Assembly (NCBI RefSeq): GCF_020532725.1
Contig: NZ_JAJAVC010000011.1
Coordinates: 62,001-126,000, forward strand
From: Methylobacillus arboreus
GTDB lineage: Bacteria > Pseudomonadota > Gammaproteobacteria > Burkholderiales > Methylophilaceae
DNA length: 64,000 bases
Direction: 5' to 3'
Positions 1,447-5,469 of the stretch are shown one piece after another. The translations under genes were made by a program, and so were the position numbers. Below the pieces are notes generated by a model that saw only the letters and a program-made list of their open reading frames with translations, had not been told where the DNA came from and ran no database searches. Position 1 is the stretch's first letter, and the number at the start of each line of letters is the position of its first letter.

Positions 1447-3642
1447 TTAGATATCCAGCCGCAAGCCAACTTCAATATTGCGGCCTAGTTCCGGCGTGTA
1501 ATAGCGCAGGAATGAGGTGCTGTTGCGGATGTCTGCATTGGTGATGTTGCGCATGCTGATGAAGAAATCGCCGGTGAGCCAGTTGGATACTTCAATGCTG
1601 CGGCGCAACGCGATATCCACCTTGTTGTAGCTGTCGGTGCCGGGTTCCGGCAACATTTCGTCTCCCACTGGCATGGTGCCGGTGCGATTTTGCGCACGCA
1701 TATGGGTGAAGCGGATGTCGCCGTCCCATTTGCCTATGCCGGCTTGTATCAGCAATCCATGGCGTGCAGGGGCCAGGCGCGGGACATGGGTGTTGTCATC
1801 CAACATGCCCCTCACCTGGTCGGCAAACACACTGGCGCGGAACTTGCGCATGCCGGGGATTTGCAGGGGCAAACCAATTTCAGCTTCATAGCCATGGAAG
1901 CTGGCATCCTGCTGGCGATATTGCATTGTGATTAGACATTGATCTTGCAGCCCGCAAGTACCAATGGCTTGTGGTCTCAAAATAATGGAATTCATTTTGA
2001 TGACGCCTGCATTCTGTTGGTAGATATAATTTTTGGCAGAATATTTGAACAAGTTAAGGTTGGCATCCAGCTTGCCGAGCTTTTGTTGTAGGCGGATATC
2101 CCAGCCATTCAGCGTTTCTATATCAAGGTTTCTTGCGCCGATATCATATGTCCTGGTCGCAAGGTGGGGGCCATATGCGGCAAGTTCCTGAATATCCGGC
2201 GCACGTCTGGCAATCCAGCGGTTTATGGTGATGCTGCCGGTCTTATAAGCGCGTTTTAGTGCCAGCGAATAGCTTTCAGGACTGAAATCCTTTTTTTCTG
2301 CCGGAATAACGTAGGAAACAGGCATAGGAATGTCCCGCGGCGTGATCCAGACAGTCTGGGCGCCAGCATCGGTTCTATTTTTCTCGTGGCGGAAACCAAA
2401 TTCCAGTTGCCAGGGATTGAAGTCTAGGGTTTCAATCAGGTAGATGCCTTTGGAGTTTATCTTCGATTCCGGCACAAATGCCTCCATACCCAAGGCGGAA
2501 AAATCGCGGTTGATGCCATGAAAGCCCAAGGTGCCTGATAGGTTGGGGAATAGCCTATGGTTGAATTCCAGCCGGTGTTCAATGACATCATTGCTGAAAC
2601 GTGTCTGCTGCACGCCATTGCTGAGTTCATCGTGATGGTAGCGGGATTTGCCGATGCGCAACGCGATGCTTTCCAGCCATTCCGATGGCAAAAACAATTC
2701 TCCCTTGAGGTCAATGCGGTCTTGCTGCATGTCGATGCGCACACGTTCTGCTTGCTCGACCGGGCCGCCGCCGTGGCTATGTGATGGCCCCATGGGGATA
2801 CCATAGTTGTTGGCATAGTGGCTGAGCGAAATGCCGATATAGCCCATCTCGCCAAATACACTGGCGCCGACACTGCCGCCTTTGCTGCGGGCATTGGTAT
2901 TGTCGACATATCCACGCGTGTTGGTCGGTAGCTCCCCGCCAAACAACTGGGTAATCGTATCCTGGTCAATCGCCATGCCCGGCACGTGAATATTGTTGCT
3001 TTCCCGTCCATGCACATCGGCATGAAACGCCACCTGGCCAGCCTTGGTGAGCAGTTCCGTCGCCATGATGCGCTCATCATGGTTGGTATTAAAACGTAAC
3101 TGCGTAGTGACCTTGGTCTTGGTCGGCAAACGTTCAGGAATGCGGCCATCAGTGATTTCCACCGCGCCGCCAATGGCGCCACCGCCATTGCGGATGGTGG
3201 CTGGGCCGCGCAACACCTTGATTTCCTTTGCCAACAGGGATTCGACAGTGGTGCCATGGTCCGGGCTCATGGCGGAGGCATCGTGCGTGCCTACGCCATT
3301 GACCATGACGCGGGTGCGCGGGCCATGCTGGCCGCGGATCAGCGGCAGGCCGACATTGGGGCCGAATGTGGCATTGGCCACCCCCAGCTCATCCTGCAGC
3401 GTGGCGCCCAGTGTTGCGGCGCTCTTGAGCATCAGGTCTTTGCCCGACAGCGTGCTGGAAGGGTCAAGCGAGTTGGTCAGTTCTTCTGGCGTGGCCTGTA
3501 CCTCTATGGCATCCAATACGATAGGAGCACCTTCCGCAGATGAGTTTTCTGCTGCGAATGCAGATGAACAGACCCCTGAAAATGCGAGAGCCAGCCGCCA
3601 CAGGTTGTGACTGAATTGGGTTGGTTTGATAGTTGAGCTCAC
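1447..3642 (-). CDS. znuD: TonB-dependent outer-membrane receptor, ZnuD-like (zinc uptake)
   Basis: A 731-residue outer-membrane receptor with signal peptide (cleavage after SSAFA), a plug domain near residues 45-165 (RGQHGPRTRVMVNGVG) and a 22-strand-type barrel. The barrel holds a His-rich loop, SHSHGGG, near residue 285, and the motif YGPHLATRTYDIGARNLDIE, which I associate with ZnuD zinc receptors. It probably imports zinc, powered by TonB. The start is GTG, with no ATG nearby. It diverges from two PEP-CTERM genes across a 43-base palindrome, which suggests shared zinc control. The C-terminus is Ile and not the usual Phe. Another metal or a small chelate is possible. Confidence 0.75.
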   Translation of the reverse strand: MSSTIKPTQFSHNLWRLALAFSGVCSSAFAAENSSAEGAPIVLDAIEVQATPEELTNSLDPSSTLSGKDLMLKSAATLGATLQDELGVANATFGPNVGLPLIRGQHGPRTRVMVNGVGTHDASAMSPDHGTTVESLLAKEIKVLRGPATIRNGGGAIGGAVEITDGRIPERLPTKTKVTTQLRFNTNHDERIMATELLTKAGQVAFHADVHGRESNNIHVPGMAIDQDTITQLFGGELPTNTRGYVDNTNARSKGGSVGASVFGEMGYIGISLSHYANNYGIPMGPSHSHGGGPVEQAERVRIDMQQDRIDLKGELFLPSEWLESIALRIGKSRYHHDELSNGVQQTRFSNDVIEHRLEFNHRLFPNLSGTLGFHGINRDFSALGMEAFVPESKINSKGIYLIETLDFNPWQLEFGFRHEKNRTDAGAQTVWITPRDIPMPVSYVIPAEKKDFSPESYSLALKRAYKTGSITINRWIARRAPDIQELAAYGPHLATRTYDIGARNLDIETLNGWDIRLQQKLGKLDANLNLFKYSAKNYIYQQNAGVIKMNSIILRPQAIGTCGLQDQCLITMQYRQQDASFHGYEAEIGLPLQIPGMRKFRASVFADQVRGMLDDNTHVPRLAPARHGLLIQAGIGKWDGDIRFTHMRAQNRTGTMPVGDEMLPEPGTDSYNKVDIALRRSIEVSNWLTGDFFISMRNITNADIRNSTSFLRYYTPELGRNIEVGLRLDI

Positions 3643-3709
3643 ATCCAGGCCAATAATATTGAGGAATTCAATTCCTTGAACAAGGGGATATTGTAATGCA
3701 ACACTATTT

Positions 3710-3752
3710 CATAATACAACAATGTTGCAACACGCAACATTGTTGTATTATG
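3710..3752. promoter_or_regulatory. 43-base palindrome, candidate Zur operator with divergent promoters
   Basis: Two perfect 19-base arms (CATAATACAACAATGTTGC and its reverse complement) are separated by AACAC. Each outer end carries TATTAT, a good -10 element pointing outward: one toward the ZnuD-like receptor (minus strand), one toward the PEP-CTERM genes (plus strand). A repressor bound here would close both promoters. The A/T-rich dyad with ATGTTGC half sites fits a Fur-family (Zur) operator, and the regulated genes fit zinc limitation. The identity of the protein is inference. Confidence 0.6.
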
Positions 3753-3822
3753 ATCCGTAGGTGTTCAGATAGTGGATCTGAACAGGAATTTATATCTTCT
3801 TGTTTATAAAGGGAGTAATACC

Positions 3823-4581
3823 ATGCGTCATTTGATTGCGACAATGTTTGTAAGCGCCAGCTTATTCAGCGGGGCAGTATTTGCAGAGGATCATCTGCAT
3901 GATGGTGATATTGAAGTTGAATTGCATGATGGAAAATTTGAGGTTCATGGTGCAGGACATAGCCAAGAAGGAACGGGCTATGCCATTTTCGAAGCGGATT
4001 TCCGTGATTTCGCCGCTGGTCCTTATGGTACAAGAGACCCGGGCTTTGATAGCCATGCCAACACTTTCGCATCAGGCGACATCGTCGGCTACCAGGCTGT
4101 TGGTTCATTATGGTCATGGACAGGCGATGTTTGGACCAATGTCGTGAATAATGGTGAAACCATCAGCCTTGCTGGCGCTGCGGGCGAGAGCACCGCTTGG
4201 GGCGTAGATGGCATTAGCGGCGATACTTTTGGTGCAATCGGCCAGGCCGGATCTGCCGGTAACATCCATTCTCATCTGGATTGGGCGATTAATGCTGCTT
4301 CTGGCTTGCCAACAGATGGCGCTTACTTTATCACCCTGCAACTGGTTTCTCTTGAGTTTGATGCCACCGGCAGCCTGGTAATTTCCGACAACGGTTATCT
4401 CAGTTCCGATCCATTCTATCTGGTCTTCAATAGCGGCCTGAGCGACGCTGCTTTCCACACTGCTGTTCATGGTTTGGAAGACAATCTGATTGCTGCTGTT
4501 CCTGAGCCAAGCACCTATGCCATGTTCCTGGCTGGTCTGGGTCTGATGGGATGGCAATTGCGCCGTCGTCAACAGGCTTAA
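3823..4581 (+). CDS. PEP-CTERM secreted protein, His-rich N-terminus (all3515-like)
   Basis: A 252-residue exported protein. The start at 3823 is chosen because GGGAG lies just upstream and a clear signal peptide follows (ending SGAVFA). The mature N-terminus is rich in His and acidic residues (EDHLHDGDIEVELHDGKFEV), a plausible metal-binding tail. The C-terminus has the PEP-CTERM sorting signal: VPEPSTYAMF, a hydrophobic helix and RRR. Such proteins are processed by an exosortase, none of which is in this window. The body shares HSHLDW, FxTLQL and SDPF with the next gene. It resembles the Zur-repressed PEP-CTERM family typified by Anabaena all3515; that link is from memory. Confidence 0.7.
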   Translation: MRHLIATMFVSASLFSGAVFAEDHLHDGDIEVELHDGKFEVHGAGHSQEGTGYAIFEADFRDFAAGPYGTRDPGFDSHANTFASGDIVGYQAVGSLWSWTGDVWTNVVNNGETISLAGAAGESTAWGVDGISGDTFGAIGQAGSAGNIHSHLDWAINAASGLPTDGAYFITLQLVSLEFDATGSLVISDNGYLSSDPFYLVFNSGLSDAAFHTAVHGLEDNLIAAVPEPSTYAMFLAGLGLMGWQLRRRQQA

Positions 4582-4590
4582 GTCTGCAAG

Positions 4591-4617
4591 AAAAGCACCC
4601 TCAGGGGTGTTTTTCTT
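4591..4617 (+). terminator. Hairpin with T-run between the two PEP-CTERM genes
   Basis: AAAAGCACCC pairs with GGGTGTTTTT across a four-base loop. It lies 10 bases after the first gene and 25 bases before the second, so it probably attenuates the second gene and does not fully separate them. Confidence 0.6.
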
Positions 4618-4641
4618 TGAGTTACGATTGAGGAGCAAAAA

Positions 4642-5469
4642 ATGATAAGGTCTTCTATATTGGCATTTGCCATGCTGGGCTATGCCACGTTTGCCCAGGC
4701 CGTGCATTACGATGTGCAGGTTGGCACCAGCAACGGTGCCGTTGCCGGCAGCAAGCTGGAAATCGATTTTTATGGCGATTACGACCTGGCTGGAAAATTG
4801 CCGGTAGACACCCAAACCGGCTACAAGATATTCCCTGGATATTTTGACGACCTGGAAGGCGGACCGCGCATGACTGATGATCCCGGCTTTCAATCTTTCT
4901 CCAATGCATTCCTGTATGGCGAGGAGGTACATTTCAGGGCCGTTGGGGCACTTTCATACTGGGACCCCAATACCGGCGCCTGGGGCGATGCTGCGAGTAG
5001 CGCGACAGTAACCCTCTATGGCGCAATCCCGGCAAATGTCTGGATCAATTACATGTTGAATCCAGGCAATGCGGCCTATGCGGCAGAATACAACTACTAC
5101 GCAGGAGGCACCGTCTATGGTGCTGATGGCATCAGCGGGCCGCAGACAGCTGCGGTTGATGCTGCAAACAGAAATGGCACCTTCCATTCTCACCTGGACT
5201 GGAAACTTTCTGATTCAGCTCCGGCGGGTGCTTATCTTCTGACCTTGCAGCTATGGTCGCCAGCCACCGAAAACGGCGAGCAGAAATATATTGATTCTGA
5301 TCCATTCCATGTGCTGTTCAAGTCGGCTGGCATTACCCAGGCACAGTATGACGAGGCGTTTGACTCGCGCATTGCTGCGGCAGTGCCTGAAGCAGATACC
5401 TGGGCCATGTTGCTGGTGGGGCTGGCAGGCCTTGTAGTATGGAGGCGCCGTCAGGTGTCGGCGGCATAA
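4642..5469 (+). CDS. PEP-CTERM secreted protein, paralogue of the preceding gene
   Basis: A 275-residue secreted protein with RBS GAGGAG before the ATG and a signal peptide ending TFAQA. The C-terminal sorting signal is VPEADTWAM, then a hydrophobic helix and WRRRQ; Ala replaces the second Pro of the usual PEP. The body shares with its upstream paralogue the blocks DDPGFQSFSNAF, YGADGISG, HSHLDWKL, LLTLQLWSP and DSDPFHVLF, with conserved His residues. The His-rich tail of the paralogue is absent. It is probably co-transcribed from the palindromic promoter at 3710-3752 and has a role in zinc handling or surface attachment under zinc limitation. The function is not established by sequence. Confidence 0.7.
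   Translation: MIRSSILAFAMLGYATFAQAVHYDVQVGTSNGAVAGSKLEIDFYGDYDLAGKLPVDTQTGYKIFPGYFDDLEGGPRMTDDPGFQSFSNAFLYGEEVHFRAVGALSYWDPNTGAWGDAASSATVTLYGAIPANVWINYMLNPGNAAYAAEYNYYAGGTVYGADGISGPQTAAVDAANRNGTFHSHLDWKLSDSAPAGAYLLTLQLWSPATENGEQKYIDSDPFHVLFKSAGITQAQYDEAFDSRIAAAVPEADTWAMLLVGLAGLVVWRRRQVSAA

Follow-up and report, generated by a model that had tools for sequence, protein, structure and literature searches.

ZnuD-type outer-membrane receptors, Zur regulons and one Zur-controlled zinc protein of the PEP-CTERM type are already known. In ZnuD the zinc site is formed by D99, H100, E340 and H499 (PMC4557270; the simulation section of that paper prints the first ligand as D90, which is read here as D99 from the alignment). 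The PEP-CTERM protein is ZepA (NF040463), which is Zur-repressed and has been tested for zinc binding; the neighbours of zepA include TonB receptors and other PEP-CTERM proteins, which were left undefined, and the outer-membrane receptor was left open (PMC10957091). The locus described here occupies positions 1447–5469 of a 64,000-nucleotide stretch of the genome of Methylobacillus arboreus, a methanol-consuming bacterium (contig NZ_JAJAVC010000011.1, 62,001 to 126,000; hereafter the window). In it, a ZnuD-type receptor gene is divergent from the genes of two PEP-CTERM proteins, P1 and P2. The locus is probably a divergent Zur-repressed zinc-uptake module, in which exosortase-sorted proteins with an HxH histidine pair would work together with the receptor.

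The receptor shares with Neisseria ZnuD (PDB 4rdr) the plug and barrel, the four zinc ligands, a His-bearing loop and Zur-type control. The overall similarity is low, however, and the receptor of the window is accompanied by two exosortase-sorted proteins. Neisseria ZnuD is its only PDB sequence match (6e-41); D128, H129, E339 and H493 of the receptor align with the four zinc ligands, all of which are kept, and the His loop, SHSHGGG, starts at residue 287. An earlier note on this DNA, made from the letters alone, had described a His-loop, ZnuD-like TonB receptor, and both parts of this description are borne out. The ligands are conserved in 18 of the 19 receptors found in such modules. The exception is locus L130 (receptor at 2983–5190), the sole member of the set lacking an equivalent of ZnuD His100, where SDL replaces PDH. 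The NCBIfam ZnuD model matches the window receptor at 9e-85; because the score falls far under the curated cut-off, the protein is called 'ZnuD-type' here and not ZnuD.

The region between the divergent genes contains three boxes of 15 bp with the form TRCAAC-N3-GTTGYA (TGCAAC-N3-GTTGCA type), their centres being 18 bp apart (Table 1). This array, in the same place and with the same pitch, is present in the window genome (G000) and in three of the four sister species that have the module (G001, G003 and G004), while G002 has a single box. The earlier note had reported a 43-base perfect dyad at 3710–3752 with outward TATTAT elements. The dyad exists and TATTAT does read outwards at both of its ends, but it spans 45 bases and its centre is non-palindromic. 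The long perfect dyad is also limited to the species of the window; since these three sister species keep the boxes and lack this dyad, the 15-bp box is taken to be the conserved operator unit. The window box inside the dyad was equalled in none of 1000 dinucleotide-shuffled versions of the intergenic region, and the best intergenic box in five species was reached in 0–2 of 1000. The putative receptor promoter mirrors that of P1 and P2, with box 1 in the spacer of the former and box 3 in that of the latter. A promoter scan alone performed no better than on shuffled sequences; the case for both promoters rests on the conserved layout.

Table 1. Features of the locus, in positions of the window.
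Feature	Positions	Strand	Description
ZnuD-type receptor gene	1447–3642	minus	731 amino acids; Pfam TonB plug and barrel
Proposed receptor promoter	3690–3719	minus	TTGTAT-N18-TACAAT, found by eye; similar elements in sister species
Zur-type box 1	3697–3711		TGCAACACTATTTCA, 2 mismatches; between proposed receptor -35 and -10
Dyad	3709–3753		20-nucleotide perfect arms 3709–3728 and 3734–3753, 5-nucleotide centre; boxes 2 and 3 plus flanks
Zur-type box 2	3715–3729		TACAACAATGTTGCA; overlaps -35 of both divergent promoters
P1–P2 promoter, sigma-70-like	3725–3754	plus	TTGCAA-N18-TATGAT; equivalents in sister species
Zur-type box 3	3733–3747		CGCAACATTGTTGTA, one mismatch; in the -35/-10 spacer of the P1–P2 promoter
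P1	3823–4581	plus	252 amino acids; secreted PEP-CTERM protein
P2	4642–5469	plus	275 amino acids; PEP-CTERM paralog of P1

The other genes that carry the box point to its regulator. An exact search for TGCAACNNNGTTGCA in six Methylobacillus genomes, with the reversed pattern as control and neighbours identified by tblastn, gave 19 copies and no control match. Eleven copies, distributed over all six genomes, have as their neighbour a FUR-family gene, after which come dksA2 and/or the gene of a COG0523 GTPase; in five of the six genomes this zur-dksA2-COG0523 locus has two boxes 38 bp apart. Five copies are upstream of the gene of type-B ribosomal protein L36 (NF002021, over the cut-off) and one, in the window genome, is upstream of a ZIP transporter gene with ZrgA and an ATP-binding cassette (ABC) transporter. 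The families found at boxed genes are ZIP (PF02535), ZrgA (PF10986), MerC (PF03203), DksA and CobW. The standard targets of Zur include L36 paralogs as well as dksA, COG0523, ZIP and zrg genes (PMC6103462). Paralogs of dksA lie downstream of predicted Zur sites, in an alignment that includes M. flagellatus, and Zur-controlled DksA paralogs have lost zinc-finger cysteines (Haas et al. 2009, PMC2770081); the boxed DksA copy found here has lost most of them. The 15-bp box is very probably a Zur box, and Zur control of the locus is strongly supported by sequence. As in the known Proteobacterial Zur regulon, the dksA2, COG0523, type-B L36, ZIP and zrgABC targets carry one and the same box; unlike it, the regulon predicted here also covers two PEP-CTERM proteins, has a three-box divergent operator and belongs to a genome without ZnuA.

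The window genome (3.05 Mb, 17 contigs; near relatives M. gramineus, M. caricis and M. glycogenes) has a second FUR-family gene at about C11:989388–989831, beside dksA2-COG0523 with two exact boxes; its product is a Zur candidate, identified by gene context. The reading of a zinc-starvation locus, already put forward in the earlier note, agrees with this candidate and with the genes that share the box. The note had also pointed to znuABC as a possible bearer of the same dyad elsewhere in the genome; a search of the window genome for ZnuA found none. The 15-bp box stands at the L36 and ZIP-ZrgA-ABC genes. Loss of znuABC in the genus as the explanation of the module is unsupported, since few genomes anywhere in the family have ZnuA (12 of 187).

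Several box-like sites lie outside the exact set. In the window genome, a one-mismatch box (L061, G000:C14:564000–571000, 3455–3469) is just upstream of a gene for a MerC-family membrane protein (3550–3930). Near-matching boxes at 3196–3210 and 3209–3223 of L062 (G000:C14:311000–317000) cover the likely promoter of a siderophore-type TonB receptor (TIGR01783), possibly a zincophore receptor. The Zur-box-like palindrome GTACAACATTGTTGTAC stands directly before a MazE-like antitoxin gene (L060, G000:C15:143000–153000, 4631–4645); the mazEF-type palindrome TACAACATTGTTGTA at C15:147630 was excluded from the Zur boxes, being a probable operator of the antitoxin itself. In G002 the ZIP-ZrgA-ABC operon adjoins the receptor (L064, 1–5125), which physically joins outer- and inner-membrane zinc uptake.

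The earlier note had also listed two paralogous PEP-CTERM proteins, one with a His-rich N-terminus, and this proved correct: P1 and P2 both exceed the Pfam PEP-CTERM cut-off and their mature domains share 36–38% identity. P1 has a signal peptide, then the His-rich mature start EDHLHDGDIEVELHDGKFEVHGAGH, and a C-terminal VPEP sorting signal. The signal of P2 is weaker, with VPEA instead of VPEP, and is under the TIGR02595 cut-off. The window genome has one exosortase gene (C11:104525) and many further PEP-CTERM proteins. None of the Pfam and NCBIfam domain models covers the P1/P2 family; TIGR03769, the model of choice-of-anchor M domain proteins, showed weak likeness to only one of 22 members (E 0.038, not significant) and did not match the others. 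Judged by their sequences, P1 and P2 form one unnamed protein family. An alignment of 22 P1/P2 domains, taken from the window and ten loci, has no invariant histidines besides those of the HxH pair (H149-x-H151 in P1, H182-x-H184 in P2), and its sole invariant acidic residue is D41 (alignment numbering); among relatives, the HxH pair is much better conserved than the His-rich tail. The AlphaFold2 model of P1 is a confident beta-sandwich domain (predicted local distance difference test (pLDDT) 93.7, predicted template modelling (TM) score 0.90). A Foldseek comparison of this model with the PDB gave nothing below E 0.001 (TM-scores 0.13–0.34), so the fold is assigned no further than beta-sandwich; the best, non-significant neighbours are fimbrial lectins and adhesins. 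The P1/P2 profile gave only a chance match among PDB sequences (E 1.2), and no P1/P2 relatives were found in viral contigs.

Some relatives differ at the C-terminus or in reading frame. P2-type proteins in L087 (2814–5024) and L089 (3647–5860) have long cysteine-containing repeats replacing the PEP-CTERM tail, and the one in L130 (5247–6296) has a different C-terminal domain in that place; this suggests that they are attached to the surface by different means. The reading frame of P2 is broken in G002 (L064, 6044–6861) and in M. glycogenes (L065, 5883–6790), and the M. glycogenes receptor is split over several frames (L065, 2521–4602); these breaks may be decay or draft errors.

P1/P2 relatives occur in Nitrosospira, Nitrosovibrio, Rubrivivax-like bacteria, other Burkholderiales and one gammaproteobacterial metagenome-assembled genome; one further genome of the class also has them. 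Within the sampled family, the module is confined to Methylobacillus (5 of 187 genomes). According to tblastn, the receptor gene is between or beside those of P1 and P2 in nearly every locus, including that of G690, the exceptions being L124 and L127. Neighbours of the module include zur-like genes, COG0523, ZIP/zrg genes and zepA, the last confirmed with NF040463 at 264–290 bits, and tonB-exbB-exbD adjoins it in L083, L120, L125 and L128. In Nitrosospira-type bacteria the trio is encoded beside ZepA.

P1/P2 and ZepA/all3515 have in common a secreted PEP-CTERM architecture, a histidine-based site, a His-rich mature start, a Zur-type box and a position beside zur and COG0523. Nevertheless, the identification of P1/P2 as ZepA/all3515 was rejected: NF040463 gives no match even at E up to 10, and the motif differs, the H-x2-9-H-[FY]-H motif of ZepA being found only in ZepA genes and absent from P1/P2, which have a single HxH. 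A profile comparison of the two families gave 18% probability over 44 columns, in the last strands only; a structure model of ZepA from four sequences reached a pLDDT of 39. The all3515 family, which the earlier note had named as Zur-repressed, thus does not include P1 and P2. Of 399 genomes drawn evenly from the order, 13 have the P1/P2 domain and 11 have ZepA; 10 of the 11 ZepA genomes also have the P1/P2 domain (hypergeometric P for the overlap ~1e-16, with shared descent ignored). The two are separable in both directions: Methylobacillus has the module without ZepA and G202 has ZepA without the module. The P1–receptor region of Nitrosospira and Nitrosovibrio contains a TGATAACGAGTTCTCA-type site that resembles the zepA site TGATAACTTATTATCA; against 1000 shuffles, such sites were matched 0 times in L084, 3 times in L088 and 29 times in L085. 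This likeness comes from chosen pairs and is to be regarded as support and not as proof.

The module might operate as follows. With ample zinc, Zn-Zur would occupy the three boxes over both promoters and keep the receptor gene and the P1–P2 operon off. Under zinc shortage, the outer membrane would receive the ZnuD-type receptor; P1 and P2 would be exported, and processing by the exosortase would bring them to the surface of the cell or to its exterior. Zinc could be bound there by the HxH sites, and by the His-rich N-terminal stretch of mature P1, and be handed on to the receptor, which would import it with the help of TonB; the Zur-boxed ZIP carrier and ZrgA/ABC transporter would carry it further inward, replacing the missing ZnuABC. 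What P1/P2 do is the weakest part of this scheme, as their two-histidine site is partial; they may instead have a co-expressed structural role.

Several observations weigh against a Zur-controlled module of this kind. Two of the 19 exact boxes are beside ABC-type ATPase genes, which are not known zinc genes (G003:C15:43664, L138; G005:C12:72705, L145), and the second FUR protein does not reach the cut-off at which NCBIfam would name it Zur. The receptor scores 285.6 bits with the NCBIfam ZnuD model, an 'exception' model with a cut-off of 950. An HxH pair makes up only part of a zinc site, and the PEP-CTERM tail is missing in some relatives (P2 of L087 and of L089, and L130). Among the sites compared with zepA, that of L121 is not above chance (166 of 1000 shuffles) and the P1–receptor region of L120 has no site match; the neglect of shared descent in the co-occurrence estimate belongs here as well.

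Zur control and a zinc-importing receptor could both be real while P1 and P2 are merely co-expressed surface or matrix proteins of an adhesin-like kind, or a passive zinc reserve. The predicted beta-sandwich of P1, with fimbrial lectins and adhesins as its nearest though non-significant PDB neighbours, would suit such a role, as would the incomplete zinc site and the abundance of other PEP-CTERM proteins in the genome. This explanation is considered unlikely, however, given that the HxH pair is strictly conserved in both subfamilies, that P1/P2 are near-constantly paired with a ZnuD-type receptor and that they co-occur with ZepA, a PEP-CTERM protein whose binding of zinc has been tested (PMC10957091). 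That the cargo of the receptor is a zinc–zincophore complex or some other metal, and not zinc delivered by P1/P2, is still less probable: Zur-controlled TonB receptors can import metallophores (PMC6103462) and the window genome has elsewhere a siderophore-type receptor with two near-matching boxes, yet the ZnuD site D99/H100/E340/H499 is intact in the receptor studied here and ZnuD is its closest solved structure. Dimeric repressors other than Zur would likewise fit a long perfect dyad, and the palindrome TACAACATTGTTGTA at the mazEF-type promoter is related to the dyad; the zinc link would then be coincidental. It is hard to reconcile such an unrelated regulator with the conservation of the 15-bp box rather than of the dyad, or with the association of the box with zur, dksA2, type-B L36, COG0523 and ZIP at zero control matches, and this explanation is very improbable.

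The preferred reading thus remains that of a Zur-repressed module in which P1 and P2 assist the ZnuD-type receptor in zinc uptake. A more specific proposal is advanced tentatively, with somewhat less than even confidence: P1/P2 would be a new exosortase-sorted zinc-relay family docking on the adjacent receptor and, where ZepA is present, the receptor (with P1/P2) would be its missing outer-membrane partner, zinc entering by hand-over from surface protein to receptor. Because the trio recurs almost exactly where ZepA occurs, the data suggest that it is the missing receptor side of the ZepA system. A search of open-licence papers on exosortase with zinc uptake and TonB, or on PEP-CTERM with Zur, led essentially to the ZepA paper alone (PMC10957091). 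Four things appear to be new, although an earlier description is possible: the P1/P2 family, which has no name, the almost constant pairing of this family with a ZnuD-type receptor, the extent to which it overlaps with ZepA, and the divergent operator of three boxes.

The trio is a specific candidate that makes the question of the outer-membrane partner of ZepA testable. The unnamed P1/P2 family gains a testable function, and exosortase sorting would gain a clear physiological job. In Methylobacillus the module, if it works, does so without ZepA and without ZnuABC.

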